Assembly: GCA_030428385.1 (NCBI GenBank)
Contig: JAUIDY010000047.1
Span: 1-43,237 of the forward strand
DNA: 43,237 bases
DNA from: Rhodothermia bacterium
Lineage (GTDB): Bacteria; Bacteroidota; Rhodothermia; Rhodothermales; JAAAOL01
Direction of reading: 5' to 3'
Under the pieces are notes generated by a model that was not told where the DNA came from, made no database searches, and saw only the letters and a list, made by a program, of their open reading frames with translations. Within the stretch, counting starts at the first letter, position 1; every line of letters begins with the position of its first letter. The position numbers were made by a program, and so were the translations under genes. Positions 20,644-41,140 of the stretch are shown here, piece after piece.

Positions 20644-23600
20644 ATGAGAAAACACGTACAACCCCTTTTTCTGTTTGCCCTCCTCGTTTTTTTAATCGTA
20701 CCAGCAACTACGGTACGGGCCCAGACCACCTATTACGCCGACGCGGTGGGGGGTAGTGATGCCAATGATTGCCTAACACCTGGCACAGCCTGTGAGACCA
20801 TCGGTGCGGCCCTTGCACTAGCGATAGATGGTGATACGATTGAAATGGCCGCTGGGACATACAGCGAAACGATTAATATTACGCAGAACAACCTGACGCT
20901 CTCAGGGGCCGGGATCGGTTCCACCATACTTGACGTGAGTGGCGGCGGTGGCGATTACGGCATTGACGCGAGTGTGAACGGCCTCACGCTGGAAGATTTC
21001 TCAGTAGCAGGAAACAGCGGTTCGTACTCGGTGAAAATCGCCGGGATCAATGCGACAACCAAAGCCACCACCGTTACCGTCCAGAACCTGCAAGTGGATG
21101 ATTCCCAACGCACGGGCGTGGATATTAACGGCGTGGATGGTGTTATCCTCACCAACATCACTGTCAATAATACGGTGGCAGGCAATGGCGTGGCGCTTAC
21201 GGATGTGGACAACGCAGTACTGACTGACATTACAACGAGCGGCAACGCATGGGGAGGCGTGGCGATCTATACCTATGGGCGGTACTATCCGCTGGGGTCG
21301 GACAACATCACGTTGGACAATATCATGGGCGATGAGCCGAACCCAGTCTACATTGAACGAGGGAATTACAACAACCCGGGCAGCCCCGAGCCGATTACCA
21401 ACCTGAACCGCGACGACTACGATTTCTCCGTCGAGAATACGACCTTCCGCGCAGGAGCAGAAAACTTCACGTTCTTGTTTGACAACCAGGCGGATGCGTT
21501 GGCATTTGCTGCTGGACTTACGAACCCGGAAGACTCGTACGTTACCGCCCTGCTCACGGGTGACCAACTCGTAGGCGCTGGCATGAGCATCCAGGCCGCT
21601 ATCGATGCGGCCGATCCGGGTGATACCATTACGGTGGGTGACGGGACGTACAATGAAAACCTGAGCATCGCCAAAAATATCACCCTGCTTTCTGAAAATG
21701 GGCGAGCTACTACCATTATCGAAGGCATTTCCAGCGTCGGGTCGCTTGGGGCGATTGTCATTTCAAGCAACACTACGGCTGTGCAGATTGGGGATACGGG
21801 GATGGGCTTTACCATCATCGGTATTGACAATGGTGCGCCGGGCGTTGAGAATGCAGCCGTCTATTTCCAGGGCAGTCACAGCGGTGCCACCCTCCGCGAC
21901 AACGAGATTCAGGCCAACGGAGATCACGGGCTTCTTACTGAGTATGGAGCCACCATCGACGGTTTTGTGATCGATAACAACGAGTTCTCTGGACAAACCT
22001 TCGTAGGTGCCCAACCTGCGGGCATTGGTTTTGGAAGCCAATTTACCACGCCAAACGTGCCACGCCAGCTAGTGACCATGGGCAATGGTGGTGGAACGCT
22101 TGGAACCGCCCTGACAACCAACATCACCTTCACGAATAACCTCATTTCGGGGACGGCAGGAGGGATCAGTTCGGATGACAACGTCAGTGAGCAAGGCAAC
22201 ACACTCGTCACCATTGATGCGGCCACCTCGACGATCACGGGCAACACCTTTGCCGGTACCACCACCCGCTTTGGCTCCTCGCTTCGCGTGCGTCGCCCTG
22301 GCACCGACATTTCGAGCAACAACTTCGACAGCACAAACATGGGCGCTAGCACCATTCATCTGTTTGTGCAGAATAACACCGACCCGGTAGAAACGATTGC
22401 TGCTAACAACACCTTCGATGTAGGCGTGTATGTTGAAGGCGGCACCTTTGTAGCCTACACCATCCAGGGAGCGGTCACGGCTGCTTCCCCCAACGATGTC
22501 GTTGGCGTGACGCCGGGGACGTACAGCGAGACGAATATTATTATCGATAAGGCCCTCACCGTCCGTGGCAATGACCCGTCGGATACCTTCGTGGAGTTGG
22601 GAGGGGGCAATGGTTTTTATCCGCAAGCCGACGGCATTACCATTCAGGACCTGACGATTCAGAATGGCGGGCAAGGCGTACGGTTTGAAATCGGCGGCGG
22701 TGGTACCATCGACAACACTGAACTGAACAATGTCACCTTCCTCGACAACAGTTCGCGCGGGATTGAAGTGCACAATCTGATGAATATGACCGATCTGCGC
22801 ATCATTGACTGTCTGTTCGATGGAGATGGTGGTGGAACAGGCATTCGGTTCTCTTCGAGTGCCACCGGAGACGGGATTATGATTACAGGAACGACCTTCC
22901 AGGATCATGCCCTCGGCTTCTACCAGGCCAACGACGGAGGAACCGGGAATGTGCAGAATGTAACTGTGGACGACGCCACGTTCGTCAACCACACCGACAC
23001 GGCCTTCTTCGCGGAGGAGATTTTTGACTCGACGATTGAAAACTCCGAGTTCACGGATAACCACCGGGGCATCACCATCTTCAAGAATTATACTGGAGCG
23101 GGCACGGACGTGGCGAACTTCACCGTTCAGAACAACACGTTTACGGACCAGATCGATTCTTCGGTGCTCTACTACCAGGCCAACAGTGCGCTGGTCGGCC
23201 CGGTGAACATTCAGGGCAACACGGTCAACCAAGATGTGGGCGTGATGGATACGCCCGTTGGCACCATTGATGTGCGCCTAGAAGCAGGCTTCACGCATGG
23301 GGCCGTGAACATCACCAGCAATGAAGTAAACCTGTCAGGGACGTTCGGTGCCATCACAGATGCGTTTGGTATCAAAGTGCGCGGCGAAGCCACCAACGTC
23401 AATATCACCGATAATGCGTTGGACGGTGGCAGTGTAGGCGGCGCGGGTGCCCCCATGACCTCTGGCCTGTATCTAGTCTCTGATGATGCGTCGATGGGCA
23501 GCTTTGGTGCCTCGTCGGTGCTCAGCTTCTCCAACAACCTCGTCAATAACTTCGTCTACGGGGTGAGTGTGTACGACGCCAACGGTTCTGTAGACGGCGG

Positions 23601-26382
23601 CCTCCCGGCTGGCGCAACGGTGATCCTGAGCGACAACGACTTCTCGGGCAACAGCAGTGGAGGCGTTAGCAACGGAGGCACCAGCGAGACCATCGATGCG
23701 CCCGGTAACTGGTGGGGCAGCAACGCCCCCGCGACGGTCGCTGCGCAGGCGGGCAGCAACGTGGACTACACGCCCTGGCTGGACGTAGGCACCAACACGA
23801 GCGGTGGCACCGGCTTTGCAGGCGACTTCACGACGCTGTGGGCCGACGACGACAGTCCGCAGACGGGGGGAATTGGTCGTATTCAAGAAGCCATCAACCT
23901 TGTGACCAACAGCACGGTGAATCTGGCACCCGGTACGTACGTTGAGCCCGCCCAGGTCTTCGTCGATGAAGATGTAGACATTATCGGCGACGACCGTACG
24001 ACGACGACGATTTCGCCCGGCTTTGATACGGGCGCGTCCGGCGATGCGCGAGGCTTCTTCCTGATTGATACCGGTATTACCTTTAACCTGAGCGATGTAA
24101 CGGTCGATGCGACGGGTCGCCTCGTTTATCAAGGCTTCCGCATCAAAGGACAGGGATCGTTTACCAACGTCGATTTCAACGAGATCAAGTACAACGAAAG
24201 CGGACCTCATTATCAAGGTGTTGCAGTCGTTCCCTTCGGTGGCGATGTGGATATCACCAACTGTACATTCTCCGAAATCGGTCGGATTGGGGTGCTATAC
24301 TTCGGCGCGGGCATCACGGGCTCAACCTACGATGGCAACACCTACACAGGGAAAGGCGCAGGCGACTGGCTCGATTATGCGCTGGATATCAGCAACGGAG
24401 CCATTGTGGATGTGACAAACAGCACCATCTCTGGCAACACGGGTGTTGCCAGTTCCGATGGCTCTACGTCGGCAGGTATTTTGGTGTCGACGTTCTTCGG
24501 TCCCGGAACGACGGCAAACATCACAGGCAATGACATCCTGAATAACACCGTCGGTATCGCAGTGGGCTTCGATGCTGCTGATGTCAGCACGGTGACGGCG
24601 AGCAACAACCTGCTGGACGGAAATACGGCATTTGGGGTGTCCAACTCGACTACAGCCGCGAGCAAGCAAAGCAATGTGGTTGCACGTCCGTTCGCGCCGA
24701 CGGAAGGTATACAGCCAGCAAACGTGGTTGCCAAGGTCGATGCGCCCAACATCGTCGATGCGCGCTCCAATGACTGGGGTGACCCGACGGGACCGAGCGG
24801 CGGCGTGATGGACCCGATCACGGGCATTTTGGCGAACGGCATTGGGGATGAAGTGGATGAATTTGTGCGGTTTGATCCGTGGATTGGCAAAGAGACTGCC
24901 AAGACGCTGTATCTGACCACTGACGTCAACGATGTGCTTGCGGTCACGGGCTATCCAAACACGACGTGGGCATACACCGCCTACGAATCCGGTGCCGACC
25001 CCGGCCTGGATGACTGGAACTACAATGGCACCGGAACTAACGTTTTCTACCTCGTGCCCGAAGAAGGCACCGAGTTTGGCGGGTCGGACGTGACGATTGA
25101 ATGGGATGAGAGCGTGCTGACCCTCGAATCAGTGACAGCCGTTGGCGGCTTGTTCGATTCAGGAAGCAGCAGTTCCACGTTCTTTACCTCGCAACCGGCC
25201 TCGAACCAACTGCGCATCAACGCAAGTCGGCTCGACAACATCAACATCACCTCGGTGGCGGGCGACTACATTGCCTGCATCTCGTTTACCCAGGCAAGCG
25301 CTGGCGTAAGCGATATCGAGATCCTGCAAACACCGCTCAGCTTCCGGCGCTTCGACGGCGTTGGTGGACAGGAAGGCGTGCTTGTTTTCCCCGACACCGA
25401 GATCCCGTCGGTGCGGGCGCTGCTAGGGGATGTGACCTCGATCATTGGACCCGATCCATCGACGGGCGACGGACTTGTTGAGTTTGAAGACCTCTTTATC
25501 TTCTCGAATGCCTACTTCTCGGACAACGTCCTGCCGACGTTATACAAGGAGAAATTCGACATTGGCCCGACGGACGATGGCACCGTGTTCTCGTTGCCGC
25601 AGGTGGATGGGCTGGTTGAGTTTGAAGACCTGATCATCTTCTCCATCAGCTACGGCCTTTCGGCGTCCGGCGGGTACGACAAGGTGATTGAAGAGACCGC
25701 GCCGCAGGTGGAACCCGTGCAGGTGCTGGTGGAAGATGCCGAGCCCGTTGGTGGTCAGCTTCGCATTCCGGTCTCGGTGGCCAACGCGGTAGACCTTCGG
25801 GCCTTCAGCATGGAATTCATCGGTGGTTCGGCGTATAAGCTGGTCGGCATCGAGGAAGGAACGCTCACGAGGTCCACCGAAGCAAGGCCCGTGTTCCTAC
25901 GGGGCATCGCCAAGGACGGGTCGATCTGGGTAGATGGGGCCATTTTAGGAGCCCATCAGCAGGCGATCCAGGGACAGGGGCATTTGTTCACGCTCGTGCT
26001 GGAGCCGGTGGAAGCGGGTAACCTGACGCTGCAAGACGTACGGATGCGGACGACGGCAAATACCAACCTGAAGTCGCAATGGGACGATATCCAGATTGAC
26101 AGCGGTATCGCCCTGCCCACCGAATACGCGCTGGAGCAGAACTACCCGAACCCGTTCAACCCGACCACGACCATCTCCTTTGCACTTCCTGAAGCAGGCG
26201 ATGTGTTGGTGGAAGTCTTCGATGTGACGGGTCGCCGGATGGCCACGTTGGTGAACGGCGAGTATGCAGCGGGTACGCATACGGTAGAATGGAATGCCCA
26301 TCAGGCACCTAGTGGTGTTTACTTCTATGCCGTTCGTGCGGGAGACTTCCAGGCCACGCGCCGCATGGTGCTGCTCAAGTAA
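20644..26382 (+). CDS. Giant secreted beta-helix protein with cohesin-like and dockerin-like modules and T9SS tail
   Basis: A 1,912-residue secreted protein. The signal peptide (MRKHVQPLFLFALLVFLIV to about VRAQ) fixes the start at 20644. Residues about 30-1420 are beta-helix repeats, organised in four blocks, each opened by a cap like AIDGDTIEMAAGTYSE (near 55, 325, 620 and 1085). A cohesin-like beta-sandwich follows at about 1427-1598, then a duplicated dockerin-like motif, DGLVEFEDLFIFS and DGLVEFEDLIIFS, near 1608 and 1655. A second sandwich (VEPVQVLVEDAEPVGGQLR) lies at about 1690-1815, and a T9SS sorting domain (QNYPNPFNPTT ... RMVLLK) ends it. It may act as surface adhesin or scaffold; no catalytic residues could be assigned. 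The next two genes each carry a cohesin-like domain. Confidence 0.85.
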   Translation: MRKHVQPLFLFALLVFLIVPATTVRAQTTYYADAVGGSDANDCLTPGTACETIGAALALAIDGDTIEMAAGTYSETINITQNNLTLSGAGIGSTILDVSGGGGDYGIDASVNGLTLEDFSVAGNSGSYSVKIAGINATTKATTVTVQNLQVDDSQRTGVDINGVDGVILTNITVNNTVAGNGVALTDVDNAVLTDITTSGNAWGGVAIYTYGRYYPLGSDNITLDNIMGDEPNPVYIERGNYNNPGSPEPITNLNRDDYDFSVENTTFRAGAENFTFLFDNQADALAFAAGLTNPEDSYVTALLTGDQLVGAGMSIQAAIDAADPGDTITVGDGTYNENLSIAKNITLLSENGRATTIIEGISSVGSLGAIVISSNTTAVQIGDTGMGFTIIGIDNGAPGVENAAVYFQGSHSGATLRDNEIQANGDHGLLTEYGATIDGFVIDNNEFSGQTFVGAQPAGIGFGSQFTTPNVPRQLVTMGNGGGTLGTALTTNITFTNNLISGTAGGISSDDNVSEQGNTLVTIDAATSTITGNTFAGTTTRFGSSLRVRRPGTDISSNNFDSTNMGASTIHLFVQNNTDPVETIAANNTFDVGVYVEGGTFVAYTIQGAVTAASPNDVVGVTPGTYSETNIIIDKALTVRGNDPSDTFVELGGGNGFYPQADGITIQDLTIQNGGQGVRFEIGGGGTIDNTELNNVTFLDNSSRGIEVHNLMNMTDLRIIDCLFDGDGGGTGIRFSSSATGDGIMITGTTFQDHALGFYQANDGGTGNVQNVTVDDATFVNHTDTAFFAEEIFDSTIENSEFTDNHRGITIFKNYTGAGTDVANFTVQNNTFTDQIDSSVLYYQANSALVGPVNIQGNTVNQDVGVMDTPVGTIDVRLEAGFTHGAVNITSNEVNLSGTFGAITDAFGIKVRGEATNVNITDNALDGGSVGGAGAPMTSGLYLVSDDASMGSFGASSVLSFSNNLVNNFVYGVSVYDANGSVDGGLPAGATVILSDNDFSGNSSGGVSNGGTSETIDAPGNWWGSNAPATVAAQAGSNVDYTPWLDVGTNTSGGTGFAGDFTTLWADDDSPQTGGIGRIQEAINLVTNSTVNLAPGTYVEPAQVFVDEDVDIIGDDRTTTTISPGFDTGASGDARGFFLIDTGITFNLSDVTVDATGRLVYQGFRIKGQGSFTNVDFNEIKYNESGPHYQGVAVVPFGGDVDITNCTFSEIGRIGVLYFGAGITGSTYDGNTYTGKGAGDWLDYALDISNGAIVDVTNSTISGNTGVASSDGSTSAGILVSTFFGPGTTANITGNDILNNTVGIAVGFDAADVSTVTASNNLLDGNTAFGVSNSTTAASKQSNVVARPFAPTEGIQPANVVAKVDAPNIVDARSNDWGDPTGPSGGVMDPITGILANGIGDEVDEFVRFDPWIGKETAKTLYLTTDVNDVLAVTGYPNTTWAYTAYESGADPGLDDWNYNGTGTNVFYLVPEEGTEFGGSDVTIEWDESVLTLESVTAVGGLFDSGSSSSTFFTSQPASNQLRINASRLDNINITSVAGDYIACISFTQASAGVSDIEILQTPLSFRRFDGVGGQEGVLVFPDTEIPSVRALLGDVTSIIGPDPSTGDGLVEFEDLFIFSNAYFSDNVLPTLYKEKFDIGPTDDGTVFSLPQVDGLVEFEDLIIFSISYGLSASGGYDKVIEETAPQVEPVQVLVEDAEPVGGQLRIPVSVANAVDLRAFSMEFIGGSAYKLVGIEEGTLTRSTEARPVFLRGIAKDGSIWVDGAILGAHQQAIQGQGHLFTLVLEPVEAGNLTLQDVRMRTTANTNLKSQWDDIQIDSGIALPTEYALEQNYPNPFNPTTTISFALPEAGDVLVEVFDVTGRRMATLVNGEYAAGTHTVEWNAHQAPSGVYFYAVRAGDFQATRRMVLLK
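25477..25631 (+). repeat. Duplicated dockerin-like calcium motif, two DNA copies
   Basis: The 17-base string GTTGAGTTTGAAGACCT occurs at 25477-25493 and again at 25615-25631, exactly 138 bases (46 codons) apart and in frame. Each copy encodes VEFED preceded by DGL and followed by xxIFS. Two such segments per module are typical of dockerin domains, whose repeats bind calcium; the first Asp positions of the canonical loop are less regular here. Confidence 0.75.
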
Positions 26383-26399
26383 TAGCAAAAACGAGCGAA

Positions 26400-26446
26400 A
26401 CCATAAGGCGCACCCTGGCTCGATGGGTGCGCCTTATGGTGATTTT
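26400..26446 (+). terminator. Rho-independent terminator after the giant secreted gene
   Basis: A perfect 16-bp stem (ACCATAAGGCGCACCC at 26400-26415, GGGTGCGCCTTATGGT at 26425-26440) with a 9-base loop is followed by GATTTTTCG. It begins 17 bases after the stop codon. This is the strongest terminator in the window and should separate the giant gene from the two cohesin-like genes downstream. Confidence 0.9.
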
Positions 26447-26461
26447 TCGTTCGGGAAATGT

Positions 26462-26469
26462 TACCTTTG
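26462..26469 (+). promoter_or_regulatory. Candidate Bacteroidota-type -7 promoter box
   Basis: TACCTTTG matches the TAnnTTTG consensus of the -7 element exactly. It lies just after the terminator and 60 bases before the start at 26530, where a promoter is needed. No clear TTTG -33 element is found at the usual distance, so support is partial. Confidence 0.35.
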
Positions 26470-26529
26470 TGGGCGGCATTCGCCACGACAAAAAATCGAG
26501 ACCCACGGATTTTTTGAAGGCTCCTACCT

Positions 26530-28164
26530 ATGTATCTGATGAAGCGGTTTGCATTATTCATCATCCTCTCCTTGACTACGTTGCCTGCCACGGCCCAGAC
26601 AACCATCCTGATTTCTCCGGCGAGTACAGCCGTGAGCGGGACAGGTATGAGCTTCAATGTGGATATTCGCCTGACAGATTATGTAGATGTGCTCGGGTTT
26701 AGCGTGCCGATCTATTATAATCCAGCGGTGATTCAGCATACGGCGGTGACTAGCCGGGGTCAGTTGTTAGGAGCCGATGGAGGCACTCCGTTTTGCCAAG
26801 TGACGCCTTCTGCCGACGCTGGAGCGGGCGAGATGCTGATTGACTGTGCAATTCTCGGAGGTACGGTTGGGGATGGAGTTTCTGGAAGTGATGGTGTGGT
26901 CGCTACGCTTGCGTTTCAGAGTGTCGGCGCAGGGTCGACCGACATTCTCTTCGATGAGAACCCCAACGAGACAAACCAGGGAGCCGGAGGAACCGCGTTT
27001 CTTCGTGTCCGCGACGACAATAACAACCCCATTGCTGTAGTCGTTGAAACAGGCCTCGTTTCGGTAACCAGTCCGCTGCCGAATGAGACGGAAACCAAAG
27101 ACTACGACGATGGCGATGAAGATGGTTCTTTCCCAGTAGCCAATGCCACCCTTGCTCGCTTGAATGTCGTCGATGCGATTGATACCGATGGAAAAACCAC
27201 CGTGGCGCTCTACGATGGAGCACCGCCAGGAGGCGATGCGGCGCCGTTTTCGGACCCAGACAGCGACATTTCGACGCTCGATGTGCTGGATCGGTATTGG
27301 GAGTTTGCGTCCTCGCTGTCGGGCGCTTTTGTCACCCATCTCGCGTTCAGCTACAGCGGCCTTGATGCCAGCGGGGTCGCTCCCGGAGGCGGTATTCCGG
27401 TACCCGCCAACCTGCGCGTGTGTCGGCGGGCGTTGGGCGCGGGTGCATCGGATGCATGGGACGTAGTGCCCGTTGCTGAAACCACGGTAGATGAAATCGA
27501 GGAAGAAGTAGAACTGACCCTGCCGCCATCTACAGGAAACTATGGGCCAGCGCAATACGCGATTTGTGGAGACGGTTTCGGCCTGCTGCCGGTCGAACTG
27601 GTGGCGTTTGAAGCACAAACCGATGGCTCAGACGTGTTGCTGCGTTGGGAGACCGCCAGCGAGACGAACAACGCCGGGTTTGAGGTGCAGCACGCCGTCG
27701 CGCAAGCAGGCTGGCAGCCCTTGACGTTTGTAGACGGCAACGGAACCACCCTTCAGCCGCAGCACTACACCCACCGGATGACGGATCTGGTGCCCGGCAC
27801 GCATCGCTTCCGGCTGCGTCAGGTAGACTTCGACGGCACCTTCGACTACAGCCCGGAAATCGAAGTGCAGGTCGAACAGCCCGGGCTCTTTCATCTGTCG
27901 GAACTGTATCCGAATCCCCTTGGCAGGGCGCATGGGAGCACGCAGGCATATCTGTCGCTGAGTGTGTCGCAAGCCCAGCCGGTAGAAGTCCAGGTATTTG
28001 ACCTCCTCGGACGCCAGGTGCACGACGTATTTAATGGCACGCTCTTGGCTCATGAAACAAAGGTCCTGACGCTCGACGGGTCGTCATTGCCCAGTGGTGT
28101 CTACACCGTTATCGTTCGGGGAAACATTTTTGCTACCACCCAGCAGTTCGTTGTTTTACACTAA
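26530..28164 (+). CDS. Secreted cohesin-like domain protein with T9SS-type tail
   Basis: A 544-residue secreted protein. The signal peptide is MYLMKRFALFIILSLTTLPATAQ; an ATG at 26539 is also possible, but the spacing from GAAGG favours 26530. Residues about 24-180 form a cohesin-like domain, with SGTGMSFNVDIRLTDYVDVLGFSVPI, then YYNPAVIQHT, then GVVATLAFQSVGAGSTDILFD. A less clear beta-rich region follows (about 190-350). Residues about 355-445 (LPVELVAFEAQTDGSDVLLR, ASETNNAGFEVQ) are the Ig/FN3-like domain that often precedes T9SS tails. The tail is variant, with ELYPNPL for the usual NYPNPF and SGVYTVIVRG near the end. A partner for the dockerin-like motif of the upstream giant protein is a reasonable inference. 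Confidence 0.84.
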   Translation: MYLMKRFALFIILSLTTLPATAQTTILISPASTAVSGTGMSFNVDIRLTDYVDVLGFSVPIYYNPAVIQHTAVTSRGQLLGADGGTPFCQVTPSADAGAGEMLIDCAILGGTVGDGVSGSDGVVATLAFQSVGAGSTDILFDENPNETNQGAGGTAFLRVRDDNNNPIAVVVETGLVSVTSPLPNETETKDYDDGDEDGSFPVANATLARLNVVDAIDTDGKTTVALYDGAPPGGDAAPFSDPDSDISTLDVLDRYWEFASSLSGAFVTHLAFSYSGLDASGVAPGGGIPVPANLRVCRRALGAGASDAWDVVPVAETTVDEIEEEVELTLPPSTGNYGPAQYAICGDGFGLLPVELVAFEAQTDGSDVLLRWETASETNNAGFEVQHAVAQAGWQPLTFVDGNGTTLQPQHYTHRMTDLVPGTHRFRLRQVDFDGTFDYSPEIEVQVEQPGLFHLSELYPNPLGRAHGSTQAYLSLSVSQAQPVEVQVFDLLGRQVHDVFNGTLLAHETKVLTLDGSSLPSGVYTVIVRGNIFATTQQFVVLH

Positions 28165-28211
28165 CTAACCTCGTTAGCGGCGCAGGTCGCTTATTTAACG
28201 GAGCATGATAG

Positions 28212-30611
28212 ATGGGAAAATGGGTTGTCGGATGGTTGGGTTTGTTCATGATCGCAGGGCTGGGAAACGTCCCTGCGCACCAGGCGATGGCACAAACCAC
28301 CCATGTGCGGGTGGCACCCGAGACCAATCCGGTAGATGGCATTGGGCAGACATTCAGCGTCGATATTGTCATTGAGGATTACGCCAACTTCCGGGGCTAT
28401 AGCATTGAGCTTTTGTATGATCCGTCGGTTGTTATGCACACTGGCATTAGCAAAGGCAATATCTTCAACCCCTTTGCCGACATCCTGCTATCCAGTGGTA
28501 GCGATGCCGCAGCCGGACGTATTGTGGCCGACCACGTCATTCTTGGCTCAGACGTTGTTACCGGGGCGCAAGCCACAGCCTTCTCGGTCACGTTTGAGGC
28601 GGTAGGAAATGGAACTACAGATCTTGCCTTTGGGCTGACGCGGCTGCGCGACAACGGAAACAACGAGATTACGCATACCACCCAGGGTGGCGAAGCATCG
28701 GTCGGGGAGGATCCCGTCTTCATTGCCGATCTGGCGCTTTCGATGCAGATCAGCAATGCAAATCCAGTGCTGGGCGATCATATAGAGATTACGCTGGAAC
28801 TGGCAAATGACGGTCCAGACGAAGCTACGGGCGTCATCGTAACGGATGAATTGCCGGATGGACTACTCTTCATCAATGCAACGGCCTCGGTCGGAACGTA
28901 CGATAACACAACGGGTGCATGGAATGTAGGGACGCTTTCTAGCGGTGGTACCGCCACATTGCTAATTGAGGCCGAGACAACTGCTGAGGTGACGCTTACC
29001 AACCGGGCCCAGGTGTTGGCCTCCGACCAGACCGACCCTGATTCTATTCCCGGCAACAGCCTGCCTGCGGAGGACGACGATGCAGAGGTGGTGGTCACGG
29101 TTGGAGCCCTTAACCTGCCGCCGCAGGTGCAAGACGACATCATCCAGGCCCGTCCCGGCCAATCCGTTATGATCAGCGTGCTTGCCAATGATATCGATCC
29201 AGAGGGGCAGCTTAACCCTGCCAGTGTGTTTATTACGTCCGCCCCTGTGAATGGCATCGCTGTGGCAAACGCCAACGGGTCGATCACATACGTGGCGAAT
29301 GTGGGTTTCCTCGGCACCGACCAACTCACCTATCGGGTGCAGGATACGCAGGGAGCTACCTCTGCCGATGCGACAGTGACAATCACGGTGTCGGCCAATC
29401 AGGCCCCGCAATTCGTGAGTACACCACCCACCACCGTTGCACCAGGCACGAGTTATCTTTACCAGATCGAGGCTGCGGATGCCGAGGGCGATCCTGTTTT
29501 CTTCTCGGCACCGCTGCTTCCCGAGTGGTTGACCCTGCTAGACTTTACAAATGGTACTGGATCGCTGAGTGGAACACCCGACGAGCAGGGGAGCACCGCC
29601 TCGGTTATTTTGCGGGTTCAGGATCAGGATGGGGCATTTACAGAGCAAGCCTTCGATATTACCATCACCGCCAACGCACCGCCAAGCACCACGGCAGATC
29701 AGGCCGAGACGGACGAAGAGGTGGCCGTAGAAATCACGGTGCTTGCCAATGACACAGATGCCGAAGGTGACCCCCTTACACTTACGGCTGTTTCCACCCC
29801 CGCAAATGGAACGACAACGTTTACGGTGGAAGGAGTAGTGACCTACCAGCCCGGGCTCGATTTCTTTGGGGTGGATCAGTTCACGTATACCGTAACGGAC
29901 GGGTTTACTCCTCAGACTGAAACGGTGATGGTCACCGTACTTCCGGTAAATGATGCACCCGGTACAACTTCCATCACCGCACCCCTAGACGGAGCCCTTA
30001 TCAGCGTGGAAGGTGATCCGTCACAAACGCTTGTTGTTAGCTGGAACGAAGCCGTCGATCCTGACAACGATCCACTTTCTTACGTGTGGCAGCTTTCCCA
30101 GACCGAAACGTTTGGCGACGCGGAAGTGATTTACGTGACTGATGGTGCCGAGGCGACGCAGGTTGAGGTGTCATTTGAAATGCTGGCGGCATTACTCGAT
30201 CAACTTGACAAAACCGATCAGGACGAAATTACCACCTATCATCGGGTGGTTGCCTCGGACGGTCAGGTGACAACGGCATCAGATTCGCAGGTGCTGTATT
30301 TCATCCGGGGCACGCTTACTGATATCGAGGTGAACAATGATTTGCCGCAACATGCCGCGCTTTTGCGGAATTATCCCAATCCGTTTACAGACGCCACCAC
30401 CATTTCTTTCACGTTGCCGAAACCCATGTCGGTCCGGCTTGTCGTGACCGACGCCTTGGGACGCCACCTTGCCACCTTGCAGGATCGCTTGTTAGCCGCA
30501 GGCACACATGCCGTCTCTTGGCAAGCCCAAGATGCACCCAGTGGACTGTATTTCTATCGACTCATCACCGAGGAGGGGCAGCAGACCCGTTCGATGTTGC
30601 ACCTCAAGTAG
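28212..30611 (+). CDS. Secreted cohesin-like, DUF11 and cadherin-like multidomain protein with T9SS tail
   Basis: A 799-residue secreted protein with a signal peptide (MGKWVVGWLGLFMIAG to about AMAQ); GGAG lies eight bases before the ATG at 28212. Domains in order: cohesin-like (about 32-165, GQTFSVDIVIEDYANFRGYS, YDPSVVMHTG); DUF11 (about 173-300, LELANDGPDEATGVIVTDEL); cadherin-like (about 304-395, VLANDIDPEG, FLGTDQLTYRVQD); a putative Ig domain (about 396-485); a second cadherin-like domain (about 486-580, VLANDTDAEGD, FFGVDQFTYTVTDG); an FN3-like stretch; and a T9SS tail from NYPNPFTDATT. The domain set suits surface adhesion. It starts 47 bp after the preceding cohesin-like gene, so the two are probably co-transcribed. 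Confidence 0.87.
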   Translation: MGKWVVGWLGLFMIAGLGNVPAHQAMAQTTHVRVAPETNPVDGIGQTFSVDIVIEDYANFRGYSIELLYDPSVVMHTGISKGNIFNPFADILLSSGSDAAAGRIVADHVILGSDVVTGAQATAFSVTFEAVGNGTTDLAFGLTRLRDNGNNEITHTTQGGEASVGEDPVFIADLALSMQISNANPVLGDHIEITLELANDGPDEATGVIVTDELPDGLLFINATASVGTYDNTTGAWNVGTLSSGGTATLLIEAETTAEVTLTNRAQVLASDQTDPDSIPGNSLPAEDDDAEVVVTVGALNLPPQVQDDIIQARPGQSVMISVLANDIDPEGQLNPASVFITSAPVNGIAVANANGSITYVANVGFLGTDQLTYRVQDTQGATSADATVTITVSANQAPQFVSTPPTTVAPGTSYLYQIEAADAEGDPVFFSAPLLPEWLTLLDFTNGTGSLSGTPDEQGSTASVILRVQDQDGAFTEQAFDITITANAPPSTTADQAETDEEVAVEITVLANDTDAEGDPLTLTAVSTPANGTTTFTVEGVVTYQPGLDFFGVDQFTYTVTDGFTPQTETVMVTVLPVNDAPGTTSITAPLDGALISVEGDPSQTLVVSWNEAVDPDNDPLSYVWQLSQTETFGDAEVIYVTDGAEATQVEVSFEMLAALLDQLDKTDQDEITTYHRVVASDGQVTTASDSQVLYFIRGTLTDIEVNNDLPQHAALLRNYPNPFTDATTISFTLPKPMSVRLVVTDALGRHLATLQDRLLAAGTHAVSWQAQDAPSGLYFYRLITEEGQQTRSMLHLK

Positions 30612-30620
30612 TAAGTGTAT

Positions 30621-32318
30621 CTAACGCGATACCCGGATGTGTCCGCCCGGTTCGATGGCCAACGTAGAGCCGGGCTGGGCGTAGAGTAGCCCTTGAAAGT
30701 GCAGTGTGCCGCGCACCACCACGGTCGCGGCCCGGTGAAGTTTCAGCACCGCGCTTTCCGGAAGCGTAGACTCGGCACTTGGTTCGAAGATGACGGTGGC
30801 TCCGGGTTCTACAATGAGGCCATCTCCGAGCGTCAGTATGGTTTCGATGTGCAACGTGCTGCCGTTGGTAACCACGACGGGTTCGTTAAATACGGTGCCT
30901 CGCGTTTCGTCACCCATCCAAGAGTTTTCGCGGATAATGGGTTGCTCGCGGAAGTCAGCGAGGTAGTCGAATACCATCGTTTGCCCCGCGTCATCGCTGG
31001 TACGGATGCGGTCGAGGGCGTTCCAACGGACAGGAAAACGATCAGGATAGTGCGCGTAGCCATTGGTATTGGGACGCGTCCACGGCGTGAGTTGGGTTTG
31101 AGTCGATGGACCAAATAGGTCGCCGTTATAAGGGGCATTTTCGACAGAAAGGTCGAGGGTGTTGTCTGCCGGAAGCACATCAAACCGGAGGCTGTCGCTG
31201 AGGGTGACGAGCAGGCCGGTGGTGCGCAACAGCCCCATCTCGAAGCGCCCGTCGATGCCGCCGCGCCGGTACTGGTCGAAATAGCCGATGCGCTGGCGGT
31301 TGGTCAGATGAAGGACGCGCCCGTGGGCCAGTTCCACCTTTTTGCAGTCCGCCGTGGAATAAAGGTCGCCCAGCGAGACATCGCGTTGCGTGGTGGTGAG
31401 GGTGTCGCACTGAATCCAGCCGAGCCGTTCGCGTTCGAAGGCCGAGATGGTTTCGTCGCCGCGTGCGTCCCAGCCGCCGCCAGCGCCCGCCATCAGCGCA
31501 TAGCCGATGGTGTTGGTGGCCCGGGAGGTGCGGTTGCTCGCCGCTGGCACGTCGTTGTCGGTGATGGCGGGGATGTGGTTAAAATGCGGTCGCCACAAGT
31601 CGTGTCCCAACTCATGCGCCATCAGCCGCACGTGGTAGACCTGGGGGATGATATTACCGGGGGTGCGGTGCATCAGGATGGAGCCGGACGACCGCCAGTC
31701 TACGCGCAGGCTGTCATATACGAGGTGGCCGCCCGGAGGGCGTCCTGCCGAAATACCGCCACCGCACATGGCGTCCAGACACGAAATACCCGTGTAGGTG
31801 AATACCTTGGCGTCGCGCTGGGTGTCGCCCCGGATGATGAGAAACAGGTAATCGAGTTGGGAGTCGCCGTTGTGGTCATACGGGCTGAAGTCGAAACCAT
31901 AGCCGTCGATGCGGTCCAGCAGTTCTTGCGTGAGGTAGCCATAGCCACCGTTGGGGCGGTGGTAGTGGGATTCGGGATGTTGGCTGACAAGGACAGAGTC
32001 GTACGGTGCGCCATAGATTACAAAGTGCCCGTTCGACTGCTGGTGAAAATATGCCGTAAGGGTGCTGTCGGCATAAGGTGGTTCCGGCGATGGGGCGAGG
32101 AGCGTCCGGGCGAAGGCGGGGAGGGCACCGCCATTGTCGAGCGGCCAGTCGCGGGCATTGAGCACCGGGTCTCCCACCACGGGGTCGTCCTTGAACTGGG
32201 CAAAAACGATTAGGGCACGTAGCGTGTCGGCGTAGAGGGGAGACGCGGCCGGGGTTGGTTGGGCTTGGGCGGCCCAGGTAGGGAGTAGGGCGAGGAGAAG
32301 CAGGGTACGTAGAAACAC
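30621..32318 (-). CDS. Secreted M6-like zinc metalloprotease
   Basis: A roughly 565-residue exported endopeptidase. The zinc motif HELGHD sits in RLMAHELGHDLWRPHF, as in the immune-inhibitor-A (M6) family. Earlier family-like parts are LRALIVFAQFKDD, YFHQQSNGHFVIYG and DHNGDSQLDYLFLIIRG. The C-terminal 100 residues (VVVTNGSTLHIETILTL, GLIVEPGATVIFEP) look like a beta-helix cap and there is no T9SS tail. The frame opens with TTG at 32390, overlapping the divergent glycerate kinase ATG by one base; the GTG at 32318 is preferred because it gives a compact signal peptide (FLRTLLLLALLPTWAAQA) and leaves room for promoters. Its 3' end lies 9 bp from the end of the cohesin-like gene. Confidence 0.8.
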   Translation of the reverse strand: MFLRTLLLLALLPTWAAQAQPTPAASPLYADTLRALIVFAQFKDDPVVGDPVLNARDWPLDNGGALPAFARTLLAPSPEPPYADSTLTAYFHQQSNGHFVIYGAPYDSVLVSQHPESHYHRPNGGYGYLTQELLDRIDGYGFDFSPYDHNGDSQLDYLFLIIRGDTQRDAKVFTYTGISCLDAMCGGGISAGRPPGGHLVYDSLRVDWRSSGSILMHRTPGNIIPQVYHVRLMAHELGHDLWRPHFNHIPAITDNDVPAASNRTSRATNTIGYALMAGAGGGWDARGDETISAFERERLGWIQCDTLTTTQRDVSLGDLYSTADCKKVELAHGRVLHLTNRQRIGYFDQYRRGGIDGRFEMGLLRTTGLLVTLSDSLRFDVLPADNTLDLSVENAPYNGDLFGPSTQTQLTPWTRPNTNGYAHYPDRFPVRWNALDRIRTSDDAGQTMVFDYLADFREQPIIRENSWMGDETRGTVFNEPVVVTNGSTLHIETILTLGDGLIVEPGATVIFEPSAESTLPESAVLKLHRAATVVVRGTLHFQGLLYAQPGSTLAIEPGGHIRVSR

Positions 32319-32389
32319 GAACGGCAAGAACAGGACGATGCAACGCAGAACCGCTGTTCCTACCTTGCCATCAACCACGGGTTCACGCA

Positions 32390-33703
32390 ATGATAAAAAA
32401 CGACCTTAATTCCCGTTTGCGAACGGATGCGCAGGCGATCTACGGGGCTGCCGTGCGGGCGGTCCAGGCCGATCAGCTATTGGCAGCATTTGATCTGGAC
32501 GTTTTTTTCGATCGGCCCTTGGAGGCATTTCGCCGCGTCATTGTTGTAGGGGCTGGCAAGGCCGCCATGGCGATGGCAGGGGCGGTGGAGCAGCGGCTCG
32601 GGCAGGTAGATAGTGGGGTAGTGGTCATTCCTGAAGGCTACGCAGCGACCCTGCCAGCTACGGAGGCGGCTCCGCAGCAGATCCGGGTCGTAGAGGCAGG
32701 GCATCCCTTGCCCACCGCCGCAGGCGTACAGGCCGCGCAGCAGGTGCTGCATCTTGCGCAGGCGGCCACAGCAGACGATTTGGTGCTGGTGATGCTTTCC
32801 GGCGGCGGCTCGGCCCTGTGGCCCTTGTTTGCGGAAGCAATTACGCTAGAAGAAGCGCAGGAGACGTTTCGGATACTGTTGCATAGCGGAGCCGACATCC
32901 ACGCCATCAACACCGTACGCAAGCATCTTTCTCGCATCGGTGGAGGGCAGTTGGCCCTTGCGGCGTTTCCGGCGCAGATGGTGGCGTTGGTGCTTTCCGA
33001 CGTGGTCGGCGATGACCTAAACGTGATTGCCAGCGGCCCGACCGTCCCTGACCCAACGACATTTGCGGATGCTCGGGACGTGCTGCATCGCTTTGGTTTG
33101 TGGGAGATGGTGCCGAATTCCGTGCGTCATCATTTGGAACATGCGGCCTCCGAAACCCCATCGTCAGATCACCCTACGTTTCAGCGGGTGCAGACGCACT
33201 TGGTGGGTACCAACCAGACCGCCTTGCAAGCGGCTGCCCATGAAGCCGAGCGAGGGGGCTACCGGGTGAGGGTGAATGAAGCGCCCGTAATGGGTGAGGC
33301 GCGGGAGGTGGGCACCCAACTCGCCCAGCATGTGATAGAGCAGGGCACCATCGTGCCTACGTGTTGGCTATCGGGGGGAGAGACGACCGTCACGGTGACT
33401 GGAACGGGGCGGGGAGGACGGAATCAGGAGGTAGCGCTTGCTGCGGCATTGGCGCTTCACGGCACGGAAGGCCCGCTCCTGTTTCTCAGCGGCGGCACCG
33501 ACGGCATCGACGGGCCGACGGATGCCGCCGGGGCCTGGGCGACGCCTGCCACCGTAGAGCAAGGGCAGACGCTTGGCCTGAACGCCGAGGCTGCGCTGCA
33601 CAACAACGATGCGTATGCGTTCTTTGAACGGTTGGATGCCTTGCTAATGCCGGGGCCGACGCATACCAACGTGATGGATATACAGGTGGTGTTGAAAGGG
33701 TGA
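32390..33703 (+). CDS. Glycerate 2-kinase (MOFRL/GckA family)
   Basis: A 437-residue cytosolic enzyme that phosphorylates D-glycerate to 2-phosphoglycerate, linking serine, tartrate or photorespiratory-type carbon to glycolysis. Family signs are VIVVGAGKAAMAMAGAVEQ near residue 50, VMLSGGGSALW, INTVRKHLSRIGGGQLA (a nucleotide-binding region), LVLSDVVGDDLNVIASGPT, and the C-terminal MOFRL domain with GRGGRNQEVALAAA and LFLSGGTDGIDGPTDAAGAW. The length is normal. The gene stands alone and is divergent from the M6-like protease. Confidence 0.94.
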   Translation: MIKNDLNSRLRTDAQAIYGAAVRAVQADQLLAAFDLDVFFDRPLEAFRRVIVVGAGKAAMAMAGAVEQRLGQVDSGVVVIPEGYAATLPATEAAPQQIRVVEAGHPLPTAAGVQAAQQVLHLAQAATADDLVLVMLSGGGSALWPLFAEAITLEEAQETFRILLHSGADIHAINTVRKHLSRIGGGQLALAAFPAQMVALVLSDVVGDDLNVIASGPTVPDPTTFADARDVLHRFGLWEMVPNSVRHHLEHAASETPSSDHPTFQRVQTHLVGTNQTALQAAAHEAERGGYRVRVNEAPVMGEAREVGTQLAQHVIEQGTIVPTCWLSGGETTVTVTGTGRGGRNQEVALAAALALHGTEGPLLFLSGGTDGIDGPTDAAGAWATPATVEQGQTLGLNAEAALHNNDAYAFFERLDALLMPGPTHTNVMDIQVVLKG

Positions 33704-37742: not shown

Positions 37743-37955
37743 TTTCACGTCCGCACGCCCACCTCATAGCCGTCCCACGCGTATTTCCTGATCGCTACGA
37801 CCTTTTTGCCGAACCAACCCCACAGGCTACGCAGACCCGGTCGATCAATGCCACCGCGTGGAGGGCACCCTTTGCGTCCTCATCGTAGGGAGTATCCGTT
37901 GTGTCTGTTGGCTGTGTCGCCGGCGCTCCAACCCGAAACTGATAACACGCATTGT

Positions 37956-39698
37956 ATGGATACCGACGTGATGGATAGGCGATGGCGGATGATAGGGCAC
38001 CTGCTCGGGCTGCTTGCCGTCGGTTTGTTGCCGCTTCTTTCTGCCACGGCACAAACCGTGGGCGGACGCCCCTCGCTGACCGACCCGACGCAGCCCAACC
38101 TCCTGCTCGAACTCCAGCAGCGCGTGCTCGAAGCCAGTGCCGACGGGCAGATGATTGCGCTCGAAGGGGCCATCGACCCGGAGCAGTATCTGATTGGCCC
38201 CGGCGATCAGTTTGCCGTGAATGTGGGCGGTACGCTGGGCACCAGTCTCGTCATCCCGGTCTCGGCGAATGGCGACCTATTTTTGCCCGAAGTGGGCCCC
38301 ATCGCCGTCAGCGGACGCACACTCGCCGAGGTGGAAGCCGACGCCGAGGCGCGGTTGCAGGCGTCGTTTCGCAATGTGACCGTTGACATCACGCTCGCGC
38401 AGCCCCGTGCGTTTCTGGTGCACGTGGCGGGCGGTGTGCCGGAGCCGGGGCGTTATCTCATGTTTCCGATGGCGCGGGTAGACGATGCGCTTCAACAAGC
38501 GGTGCTGCGGGCCGCCGTGCGGCTGGATCCCGTGACGGGTCGTTCGCCCCAGATTCCCGGTTCCGCCCTCACCGAACGCCCCGCACTGGGGCAGACCTAC
38601 CGCGCCGCGTTGCGCAACATCCTCGTCCACCACCGCGACAGCACCAGCGAGCGCCTCGATCTCCTGCGCTATTATGCCATCGGCGACCTGGATCACAACC
38701 CGTTCCTGCGTGATGGTGACGTGGTGGAAGTGCCGACGTACCATCAGGAAAACGACGCTGTGCGCGTCTCCGGCGAAATCGCCTATCCCGGCACCATGGA
38801 TTTTCGCCCCGGCGATAGGGCGCTCGACGTGCTGCGCATCGCGGCTGGGCCGGGAGGCATGGAAAAGCTGAAGGAGGTGCGGCTCACGCACGAAAACGAC
38901 GACGGCACCGTCGATAACATCTTGCTGGACATCCCGCGTATTTTGGCAGGCGATGCGGCAGATGTGGCCCTCGCGCCGCGGGATCATCTCAACGTATTGG
39001 CCGAAGACCGCGCCTCGGCGGCCATCCACGGGCTCGTCGAGTATCCGGGCACGTATCCCATCGAAGACGGCGTCACCACGCTGCGTGACCTTATTGAACT
39101 GGGCGGGGGCCTCAAGCCCGACGCCAACCCACGCGCTGCCTTTATCGAACGCCGCCAGTCGTTTTATTTTAAGCAAACGGGTCAGGCCACGGACCTCGAC
39201 TTTTTCAGCCGGACCTATCTCCAGCAATCGCTCAACCGCAACAACGTGGTGGTGGATCTGGAAGCCGCGCTGCAACCCGGCGCGCCCGACTTTGTGATTT
39301 ATGACCAGGACCGGGTGGTTTTCCCACGGGATGAAGGCACCGTGTATGTGACCGGCAACGTGCCACAGGCCGGGTTTATCCGGTTTGTCGACGGGCAGCG
39401 GGCGCGGTATTATGTGGATGCCGCCGGAGGCAAAGGGCCGCTTTCCAAAGGCGTCTACGTGTTTTCGCCCGATGGAAAAATGAAGACCGGCGAGCGCACC
39501 GTCGTGCGGCAAGGCGACACCATCTTTGTCGACCGCGAAGACATCGCCGAGTCCCCGGACATCGCCACGTTGCTCATCAGCGACCGCAGTGCGAAGCGGC
39601 AGGCGCGGATCATGAACACGCAAACGATCATTACCGGAGTCTCGGCGATTACGAGCATCCTCACCGCCTACGTTGCCCTCCGTAGCATCAACAACTGA
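37956..39698 (+). CDS. Polysaccharide export protein with SLBB domains (Wza-like)
   Basis: A 580-residue exported protein of the outer-membrane polysaccharide export family. After a signal (HLLGLLAVGLLPLLSATAQ) comes the poly-export domain near residue 75 (YLIGPGDQFAVNVGG, GDLFLPEVGPIAVSGRTL). Four SLBB-type segments follow, starting near 152 (VHVAGGVPEPGRYL), 267 (VRVSGEIAYPGTMDF), 353 (IHGLVEYPGTYPIEDG) and 461 (VYVTGNVPQAGFIRF). A hydrophobic helix ends the protein (about 558-577). No lipobox is present, unlike classic Wza. The ATG at 37956 was chosen to place the signal near the start; 37971 is an alternative. It heads a polysaccharide operon, with 8 bp to the next gene. Confidence 0.9.
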   Translation: MDTDVMDRRWRMIGHLLGLLAVGLLPLLSATAQTVGGRPSLTDPTQPNLLLELQQRVLEASADGQMIALEGAIDPEQYLIGPGDQFAVNVGGTLGTSLVIPVSANGDLFLPEVGPIAVSGRTLAEVEADAEARLQASFRNVTVDITLAQPRAFLVHVAGGVPEPGRYLMFPMARVDDALQQAVLRAAVRLDPVTGRSPQIPGSALTERPALGQTYRAALRNILVHHRDSTSERLDLLRYYAIGDLDHNPFLRDGDVVEVPTYHQENDAVRVSGEIAYPGTMDFRPGDRALDVLRIAAGPGGMEKLKEVRLTHENDDGTVDNILLDIPRILAGDAADVALAPRDHLNVLAEDRASAAIHGLVEYPGTYPIEDGVTTLRDLIELGGGLKPDANPRAAFIERRQSFYFKQTGQATDLDFFSRTYLQQSLNRNNVVVDLEAALQPGAPDFVIYDQDRVVFPRDEGTVYVTGNVPQAGFIRFVDGQRARYYVDAAGGKGPLSKGVYVFSPDGKMKTGERTVVRQGDTIFVDREDIAESPDIATLLISDRSAKRQARIMNTQTIITGVSAITSILTAYVALRSINN

Positions 39699-39706
39699 AC
39701 CGGATC

Positions 39707-41119
39707 ATGGACGAGATGCAAAACAACGGTAGCCAGCCCCTCATGGGCGGCGATTTTGTGAGCGATCCGGAGCGCCGCGCCCGGTTTGAGCAGGCGGTGT
39801 GGGGGTTCGTGGGCACGATGTGGCGCAACCGCACCATCATCATTGCGGTGACAGGCATCACGGCGGTGCTGTCGGTGGTGATTGCACTGCTGCTGCCCAA
39901 GTGGTACCGCGCCGAGTCGCGGTTGCTGCTGCCCGGCCGCAGCGGCAGTGGATTGATCGCGGGGGCGCTGTCAGAACTGCCGTCGGCGGCCAAGTCGCTG
40001 CTGGGCGGGGCGTCGGGCGACTATTCGCGCTACCTGACCATCTTGTGGAGCCGCAGCCTCGCCGAGTCCACCATTGATTATTTCGACCTGACCACAGTCT
40101 ACGAGACGGCGGAAAGCAACACGCCGGTCTACGACGCCATGCTGATCTTGTGGGACAATTCCGGATTCACCGTTGATGAGGAATTCGAGCACCTGACGAT
40201 TGCCGTCATGGACCAGGACCCGCAGCGGGCAGCGGATCTCACCAACTTCATGGTGGACGAACTGGGACGGATCAATGCGCGGCTGGCCTCGGCGTCGGCG
40301 GCCAAGTTCCGCACGTATATCGAGCAGCGCTACAACGAAACCGAGTCGGCGCTCGATTCGGTGTTGACCGAGCAGCGCAAGCTACAGGAGAAATACGGCA
40401 TCATCTTCCCCGTAGAGCAAAGCGAGGTGTTGCTCGAAAACATGGCCGGGATGCGGCTGGCGATGTTTTCCGCCGAGGCCGACTACGCCCAGTTGCTCGG
40501 CGAAGTAGAACTGGAATACGGACGGCTGGTGGGACAGGCCGAGTTGGAATACGAGCAACTCCTCAGCATGTATGGCCCCGAAAACTCGCTGGTGCGACAG
40601 GCCCGCGAAGCGATGGTGGGGGCGCAGAACCAGTATCAAAAAGCCATGCGGACGGCCCGGCAGCGCTACGAGCAGTCGCGCTCGTCGGCGCAGCAGGAGT
40701 TCAACAACGTGCTGGACGGCGGCGAACGCCTCTTGCCCATCCCCGCCGACAGCATCCCGGCGATCTCGCAGGAGTTTTTTAACCTGCAAAAGGAGCAGGT
40801 TATCCTCGCCGAACTGATCAAATACTCGCGCCCCGTGCTCGAAGAAGCGCGGTTCGACGAGCAGCGCGAGGTGGAGGCCGTGCAGGTGGTCGATCGCGCC
40901 GTGCCGCCGGAGCGCAAGTTTAAACCCAAACGCGCCATCATCTGCATCGGCATGACCATTTCCGGGTTTATCCTTGTGGTGCTTTTTGTGCTGGTGCGCG
41001 ACTGGTGGCGGCGCAATTACCGCTATCTGTTCGACCGGGTGCAAGAGGCGGCTTCCCAGCCTGCGCCCGAACGCGCCGTGATCCGCAAAGCCGCGTCGAA
41101 AAAGTCCGTCACGTCCTGA
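39707..41119 (+). CDS. Wzz-type chain-length determinant / polysaccharide co-polymerase
   Basis: A 470-residue inner-membrane protein that would set polysaccharide chain length and link polymerase to export. It has the Wzz layout: a first membrane helix at about 43-63 (TIIIAVTGITAVLSVVIALLL), a long periplasmic helical part (about 195-370, strongly coiled-coil-like), and a second helix at about 410-431 after a conserved-looking VDRAVPPERKFKPKR. No tyrosine-kinase domain or Tyr-rich tail is fused. The coiled coil contains a local repeat, VELEYGRL and AELEYEQL, near 266-285. It lies between the SLBB exporter and the ligase gene. Confidence 0.92.
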   Translation: MDEMQNNGSQPLMGGDFVSDPERRARFEQAVWGFVGTMWRNRTIIIAVTGITAVLSVVIALLLPKWYRAESRLLLPGRSGSGLIAGALSELPSAAKSLLGGASGDYSRYLTILWSRSLAESTIDYFDLTTVYETAESNTPVYDAMLILWDNSGFTVDEEFEHLTIAVMDQDPQRAADLTNFMVDELGRINARLASASAAKFRTYIEQRYNETESALDSVLTEQRKLQEKYGIIFPVEQSEVLLENMAGMRLAMFSAEADYAQLLGEVELEYGRLVGQAELEYEQLLSMYGPENSLVRQAREAMVGAQNQYQKAMRTARQRYEQSRSSAQQEFNNVLDGGERLLPIPADSIPAISQEFFNLQKEQVILAELIKYSRPVLEEARFDEQREVEAVQVVDRAVPPERKFKPKRAIICIGMTISGFILVVLFVLVRDWWRRNYRYLFDRVQEAASQPAPERAVIRKAASKKSVTS

Positions 41120-41140
41120 AGGTTTAGCGGCTGAACAGCT

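Follow-up and report, generated by a model that had tools for sequence, protein, structure and literature searches.

Three consecutive genes in the window, that is, the whole stretch of 43,237 nucleotides of Rhodothermia bacterium DNA analysed here, probably encode a non-cellulosomal assembly of dockerin and cohesin proteins that is displayed on the cell surface through the type IX secretion system (T9SS) and would serve as an adhesion complex or a matrix lattice. This reading is founded on the identities of the domains, the T9SS tails, and the order of the genes together with its conservation across phyla (Table 1). A cohesin/dockerin system lacking carbohydrate enzymes had been proposed in a preliminary description, and its domain calls hold in profile, structure and homology tests.

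Table 1. Features of the cluster by position in the window. A3 is the standalone-cohesin profile and A4 the joint profile of 54 dockerin-like family sequences.
Feature	Position	Strand	Remarks
P0001, 1,912 aa	20644..26382	+	Secreted beta-helix protein with CohA-dockerin-CohB-T9SS tail
P0001 right-handed beta-helix region	20731..24888	+	Matched by no catalytic family
CohA, first P0001 cohesin	24889..25428	+	AF2 model, VIA-align Z ~15; A3 profile 1.1e-5
P0001 divergent dockerin-like module	25402..25707	+	A4 profile; helix after each loop in model
P0001 DGLVEFEDL motif of the first loop	25468-25494	+	LGD..DGLVEFEDL
P0001 DGLVEFEDL motif of the second loop	25606-25632	+	FDIGPTDDG..DGLVEFEDL
CohB, second P0001 cohesin	25711..26100	+	2xdh Z 14.0; A2 profile to 2xdh 1.9e-7; A3 9e-10
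P0001 T9SS type A sorting domain	26143..26370	+	TIGR04183, 43.9 bits
P0002, 544 aa	26530..28164	+	N-terminal cohesin, uncharacterised middle, then region and T9SS tail
P0002 cohesin	26590..27096	+	AF2 model, Foldseek; A3 profile 1.6e-28 (P0002 itself belongs to A3)
P0002 T9SS sorting domain	27904..28155	+	TIGR04183
P0003, 799 aa	28212..30611	+	N-terminal cohesin, DUF11, Big_9/cadherin-like repeats, T9SS tail
P0003 cohesin	28281..28733	+	PF00963, 25.1 bits; homology to P0002 N-terminus
P0003 T9SS sorting domain	30372..30590	+	TIGR04183

P0001 starts with ATG, and a stretch resembling a signal peptide comes next; all three proteins pass the TIGR04183 cut-off with T9SS type A tails, so the earlier claim of three consecutive T9SS-tailed proteins is borne out in coordinates, lengths and tails. 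No terminator-like site was found on the + strand in the gaps between the three genes. The genome carries at least 150 such tails (TIGR04183), and because of this the T9SS secretion machinery is presumably encoded in it. The beta-helix region of P0001 gave NosD and beta_helix NCBIfam matches of 2.3e-21 and 2.3e-10, both below the model cut-offs, and its C-terminal part shares 39-52% identity with the beta-helix regions of dockerin-bearing relatives from other phyla. The homologue of the P0002 region that carries the T9SS tail is a separate downstream gene in relatives.

A jelly-roll cohesin fold is predicted for the N-terminal domain of P0002 and for CohA and CohB of P0001, and the top structural matches of the models are cohesins (Z ~14-16). 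The AF2 model of the P0002 domain (pLDDT 87.5, pTM 0.81) retrieved cohesins as all of the top 50 PDB matches in Foldseek, with the best structural match at Z 16.1 and 2.3 A over 135 residues. In the model of the P0001 module, CohA occupies residues ~1-180 (rmsd ~2.3) and CohB residues 275-412. P0001 therefore has two cohesin-like domains; the preliminary description was right about the fold and wrong in counting one. Proteins with more than two cohesins were not seen among the matches in this draft genome. Neither the P0002 N-terminus (no Pfam match in hmmscan) nor P0001 is matched directly by PF00963, and an iterated cohesin HMM did not pick up CohA and CohB of P0001 or CohA of L025a (see below), so the calls of these last three domains rest on structures, Pfam and the A3 profile. 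The N-terminus of P0003 scores 25.1 bits against PF00963 in a single-genome scan and 20.1 bits in hmmscan, with a cut-off of 24.1, and it is homologous to that of P0002 (32% identity over 184 residues, 1e-20). As had been claimed, both proteins thus start with a cohesin-like domain, P0002 by fold and P0003 by Pfam at the cut-off and by homology. PF00963 matches 32 of the 49 members of the standalone-cohesin set at E <=0.01.

The motif DGLVEFEDL is indeed duplicated in P0001 (residues 1609-1617 and 1655-1663), and in the AF2 model each loop leads into a helix (model residues 199-208 and 245-254). The VIA-align matches of this model include no dockerin, but they are dominated by CohA, so that this absence carries no weight. 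The calcium loops depart from the canonical 12-residue spacing: the first is longer by one residue, the second has a long insertion, and in neither does the Asp of position 1 stand in its usual place. A single-sequence search of the PDB gave marginal kinase matches only. The A4 profile retrieved solely dockerin-bearing chains from the PDB at E <=1 (4wi0_B, 2.9e-5; 2y3n_B, 2.2e-4), and in the own genome P0001 was its single match (4.6e-27). The dockerin-like module of the preliminary description is therefore upheld by the family profile and not by PF00404, which matches none of the 54 family members, P0001 included. Judged by profile similarity, the family belongs to the dockerin superfamily in a wide sense, in that homology to solved dockerins is detectable.

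In the own genome, the best two standalone-cohesin matches of A3 are P0002 and P0003, the next two genes after P0001. A second cluster of like layout lies on contig C97 (L025a followed by L025b), and there both cohesin and dockerin are recognised by Pfam. No glycoside hydrolase family was matched by Pfam among 20 further open reading frames of the window, in accordance with the earlier statement that none lies nearby, and a cellulosome with local enzymes was rejected. The other two dockerin proteins of the genome above the Pfam cut-off also lack a hydrolase domain. The second cluster, together with the conservation of the gene pairing in many phyla, strengthens the enzyme-free reading.

A single-sequence search with the P0001 C-terminal module gave no match in the named genomes; the alignment search succeeded, and 59 named loci, belonging to many phyla, have the module. 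Of the 51 loci that could be evaluated, again in many phyla, 36 have a standalone cohesin gene <=400 bp downstream, and in the other 15 none was found within that distance; adjacent pairs of module and cohesin genes are on the same strand in 50 of 53 cases. A chance repeat of the motif was considered and rejected, since dozens of unrelated contigs show this layout. The cargo of the module gene in relatives, as far as Pfam names it, is non-catalytic, either beta-helix or FN3. The strongest standalone cohesins in a sample of 394 genomes are those of G000, G014, G302 and G353, and all four genomes carry the module; this co-occurrence is supportive but partly circular, because most of the sequences in A3 come from neighbours of the module, and some are from G000 and G014. 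G302 and G353 sequences were not used in building A3 and so provide an independent check: their standalone cohesins are on the same strand as the module gene, at 16 bp (A3 1.3e-37) and 3.1 kb downstream (A3 1.0e-30), respectively. Across phyla, the cohesins of the three kinds (CohA, CohB and standalone) group according to position: the tree has 8 label changes, against 57 after shuffling.

An assembly at the surface or for adhesion is probable, given that the genes are paired in this enzyme-free way in many bacterial phyla. P0001, P0002 and P0003 would be exported by type IX secretion and held on the surface by their C-terminal tails, P0001 displaying its long beta-helix beside an ordered cohesin-dockerin-cohesin unit. 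The dockerin of P0001 would dock into the cohesins at the N-termini of P0002 and P0003 and so link the beta-helix protein to Big_9-type stalk proteins. The product may be a non-catalytic lattice, or a complex for cell-to-cell or cell-to-surface adhesion, its role and stoichiometry being conjectural. The dockerin may also be taken up by a cohesin of the same chain, CohA or CohB, and anchoring of the three proteins by their tails on one cell surface restricts the docking geometry. We give an even chance to a broader formulation, namely, an undescribed cross-phylum two-component surface system in which a T9SS beta-helix protein ending in cohesin-dockerin-cohesin is paired by gene order with 1-3 standalone cohesins, has a distinct dockerin whose second loop is extended (signature DVGPTDD..PxPDxxIDFEDLMIFAMNYG) and assembles by itself into a non-catalytic lattice or adhesion layer on the surface. 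The literature searched yielded no description of clusters of this type.

Among known systems, the cohesin 2xdh of Archaeoglobus fulgidus and its dockerin are non-cellulosomal like the window cluster, although they are archaeal and the cluster is bacterial, and to our knowledge no T9SS tail is to be expected on them. In the profile comparison of the A2 alignment (the CohB part) with the PDB, 2xdh came first, and it also ranks among the top matches of P0002 by structure. The A. fulgidus pair binds tightly and has served as a display tool (PMC9705933). Candidatus Stygibacter (Cloacimonadota) has Gram-negative dockerin and cohesin proteins with a C-terminal surface-attachment domain, as in the window, but its dockerins are on hydrolases and peptidases and its cohesins on one CBM-bearing scaffoldin of 3,755 aa (PMC8542988), whereas in the window the dockerin and cohesin genes adjoin each other and no enzyme was seen. 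Non-cellulosomal, extracellular cohesin/dockerin proteins are likewise described from ANME archaea and their sulfate-reducing partners, where a role in cell-cell contact is proposed and adjacent cohesin/dockerin domains are mentioned for Hot-Seep1; these are other organisms, and T9SS context or beta-helix cargo is not mentioned in the portions of the reports drawn on here (PMC9012536, PMC10553843). The type II cohesins of ScaA/ScaB and the X-dockerin of Acetivibrio cellulolyticus (4wi0, 4u3s, 3l8q) include the closest PDB dockerin by profile (4wi0), and Foldseek ranks the two-cohesin dyad 3l8q first for the P0001 module; cellulosomes, however, combine enzymes with multi-cohesin scaffoldins, while P0001 has beta-helix cargo and an extended second calcium loop.

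A less probable but still appreciable explanation is that CohA-dockerin-CohB is self-contained, own-chain docking forming a calcium-stabilised stalk and the standalone cohesins being otherwise employed, for example, as a secretion cap or chaperone. The three domains are adjacent and were predicted together with a pTM of 0.78 (AF2), in 86 of 92 dockerin genes the dockerin has a cohesin after it, and the position-specific classes mentioned above would mean that the roles of the cohesins differ. It leaves unexplained, however, the retention of a separate, neighbouring cohesin gene in different phyla and the fact that the best two standalone cohesins of the own genome adjoin P0001. It is improbable that the cohesin folds serve only as beta-sandwich spacers of a generic kind and the EF-like segment as a calcium site with a structural role, there being no recognition between the genes and T9SS genes merely clustering. 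The failure of PF00404 to match the family agrees with such spacers, and the abundance of T9SS tails in the genome makes tailed neighbours unremarkable; but the profile of the family matches dockerins exclusively in the PDB, and mere clustering was rejected because Pfam cohesins are rare (0-10 matches per genome examined) and yet repeatedly adjoin one dockerin family. A cellulosome-like degradative complex with its enzymes elsewhere in the genome is very unlikely. The module types are those of cellulosomes, a polysaccharide lyase might in principle have escaped detection in the beta-helix of P0001, and for Ca. Stygibacter a tail-anchored scaffoldin has been proposed as the partner of dockerin-bearing enzymes (PMC8542988). 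Against this, the genome has one dockerin of the P0001 family, its two other dockerin proteins above the Pfam cut-off carry no hydrolase domain, and the named cargo of relatives is of the kinds given above.

Judged from gene neighbourhoods, the cluster is a recurring cross-phylum arrangement and not a local oddity. Non-cellulosomal cohesins and dockerins are widespread, and what they join to one another is a long-standing question in the field. The conserved enzyme-free pairing of one dockerin family with adjacent cohesins in many phyla names likely partners, so that a simple binding assay can put the question to a direct test. If the surface assembly proposed here is true, it would carry cohesin-dockerin chemistry over to surface display by T9SS and would provide new orthogonal binding pairs.

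The cluster consists of three consecutive genes, P0001, P0002 and P0003 (table), in the contig C2, which the window covers entirely (43,237 bases) and which belongs to a genome of 6.19 Mb over 245 contigs. The genes are separated by 147 bases (P0001/P0002) and 47 bases (P0002/P0003), and no terminator-like sites were found on the + strand in either gap. All three proteins carry the type IX secretion (T9SS) tails ascribed to them earlier, each exceeding the TIGR04183 cut-off, although at least 150 such tails occur genome-wide, so the tails by themselves are unremarkable. The absence of glycoside hydrolases nearby was likewise borne out, since no GH family was matched by Pfam in the 20 further ORFs of the window. 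The remaining genes are for haem and thiamine biosynthesis, a kinase, a carboxypeptidase, polysaccharide export and others (Pfam). Roughly 7 kb downstream of P0001-P0003 lies the polysaccharide export set, a possible surface-polymer context. In addition, a secreted protein convergent with P0003 bears a zinc-protease-like HELGH motif (MAHELGHDLW); no Pfam family matched it up to E = 1.

Table. Coordinates of the cluster and of other features in the window and in other sequences
Feature	Sequence	Coordinates	Strand	Description
P0001	window	20644-26382	+	
P0002	window	26530-28164	+	
P0003	window	28212-30611	+	
HELGH protein	window	30621-32390	-	589 aa
Polysaccharide export set	window	37806-43236		Poly_export/SLBB, Wzz, O-antigen ligase
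Kinase	window, contig start	72-2834	-	920-aa serine/threonine kinase with TPR repeats
L025 cluster	contig C97	672-12383		L025a and L025b
L025a	contig C97			2,660-aa HYDIN-Ig protein ending Coh-Doc-CohB-T9SS; cohesin 37.2 bits, dockerin 24 bits (genome scan)
L025b	contig C97			1,179 aa; N-terminal cohesin 28.7 bits (genome scan), then Big_9 and CHRD
L024	contig C210	7728-12100		1,457-aa protein; cohesin and clear PF00404 dockerin (43 bits) preceding T9SS tail
L113	contig C216	2-1159		N-terminal cohesin-like gene
L114	contig C227	7036-7644		N-terminal cohesin-like gene
L021	locus L021	4406-7009		cohesin proteins

P0001 begins with a beta-helix (residues about 30-1415; NCBIfam NosD/beta_helix, scores under the model cut-offs), followed by a first cohesin (CohA), a dockerin-like segment and a second cohesin (CohB). 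The cohesin-like domain of the preliminary description is thus present, but by model there are two where one had been claimed. The AF2 model of CohA-dockerin-CohB, from a 28-sequence alignment, has a pLDDT of 80.6 and a pTM of 0.78; in VIA-align CohA (model 1-180) superposes on cohesins with Z about 15 and rmsd about 2.3, and CohB (model 275-412) on the Archaeoglobus cohesin 2xdh with Z 14.0 and rmsd 3.9. For the entire module Foldseek ranks the type II cohesin dyad 3l8q first, with a global superposition so poor (TM about 0.3) that only the single domains should be counted.

The dockerin-like segment was to be checked against PF00404, which matched 0/54 family members, P0001 among them. This is because, in the family alignment, an insertion, DVGPTDD..PxPDxxIDFEDLMIF, interrupts the second repeat between what are normally calcium-ligand positions one and five. 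Neither loop of P0001 is canonically spaced, so its calcium binding is putative. Searched against the whole PDB with an E limit of 1, a profile built from the 54 sequences gave eight matches, all of them dockerin-bearing chains, the best being the Acetivibrio X-dockerin (2.9e-5 and 5.6e-5) and then a GH48 dockerin (2.2e-4).

The N-terminal domain of P0002 is a cohesin by model (pLDDT 87.5, pTM 0.81), and its best 50 Foldseek PDB matches are all cohesins. P0003 is borderline for PF00963 (25.1 bits in one scan, 20.1 in another) and is 32% identical to P0002 across the cohesin domain (1e-20). The 49-member standalone-cohesin profile A3, which matches cohesins almost exclusively in PDB and of which 32 members match PF00963, gives 1.6e-28 for P0002 and 4.6e-35 for P0003, scores inflated by their own membership; the P0002 fold and P0003 Pfam results are independent of it. 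The two are sisters in the cohesin tree (97% local support), which suggests local duplication. Furthermore, the last 190 residues of P0002 are 32-34% identical to the product of a T9SS gene that stands on its own downstream in relatives, which suggests that P0002 arose by fusion; P0003 further contains DUF11 and Big_9 (Pfam).

In the own genome only P0001 matches the dockerin-like profile, and the best two hits for a standalone cohesin come from the pair of genes that follow it. A second cluster in this genome, L025a then L025b, has the same arrangement, and its dockerin is closer to canonical. Of the other loci of this genome, L024 has no adjoining standalone cohesin gene, and one of L113 and L114 is cut at a contig end.

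The (Coh)-dockerin-Coh module was found by alignment search in 59 loci of named genomes, across Bacteroidota, Ignavibacteria, Balneolales, Krumholzibacteriota, Eisenbacteria, Latescibacterota, Gemmatimonadetes, Poribacteria and other MAGs. In the gene maps, one to three large cargo-(Coh)-Doc-Coh-T9SS genes are followed by at least one small gene (median open frame 296 aa) with a signal peptide, a cohesin and often a T9SS tail. Among 51 evaluable loci, duplicates removed, a standalone cohesin lies at most 400 bp downstream in 36 and adjoins on either side in 40, and 50/53 adjacent pairs share a strand. Per gene, one occurs within 400 bp of 50/88 dockerin genes versus 7/33 other T9SS-tail genes of the same loci, a conservative control because those genes often belong to the same cluster. 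Since genomes hold only 0-10 cohesins (Pfam), chance adjacency to a given gene is estimated here at well under 1%. Moreover, two relatives' genomes (G302, G353), found via the module profile and absent from the cohesin profile, both carry a standalone cohesin on the module gene's strand, beside it (16 bp) or 3.1 kb downstream. Cargo in 13 large relatives is beta-helix/NosD or FN3-type wherever Pfam names anything beyond tails and cohesin. At L021 and its relatives the cohesin proteins lack the T9SS tail and end in repeated DVxxNGxVKYSGSGNDRSxIL motifs, each set being followed by a separate T9SS-tailed gene.

The nearest neighbour of a cohesin in another locus usually has the same position label (CohB 81/82, standalone 64/67, upstream 58/59, CohA 13/15). 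On a 107-domain tree, which rests on few columns so that its clustering counts and its branching order does not, the four labels take 8 changes versus 57 when shuffled. From these sequence comparisons the positions probably diverged before the cluster spread, and the cluster would then have been inherited or transferred as one unit.

Cohesins and dockerins outside cellulosomes are established, as discussed in PMC9012536, and such pairs are already known. Candidatus Stygibacter offers a T9SS-linked case, which differs in that its dockerins are attached to enzymes (PMC8542988), and for the sulfate-reducing partners of ANME cohesin/dockerin complexes with a proposed adhesive use are reported in PMC10553843. 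No description of this cluster type was found in the literature searched, which was thin on subscription journals and is therefore weak evidence. The combination of T9SS display, beta-helix cargo, a cohesin-dockerin-cohesin tail, an extended-loop dockerin family and fixed gene pairing appears to be undescribed. Domain identity, tails, gene order and conservation are observed. The main rival reading is that the dockerin may dock within its own chain, with which the joint prediction of CohA, dockerin and CohB is compatible. More probably the P0001 dockerin binds the neighbouring cohesins, and the resulting assembly would be non-catalytic, with an adhesive or structural role.
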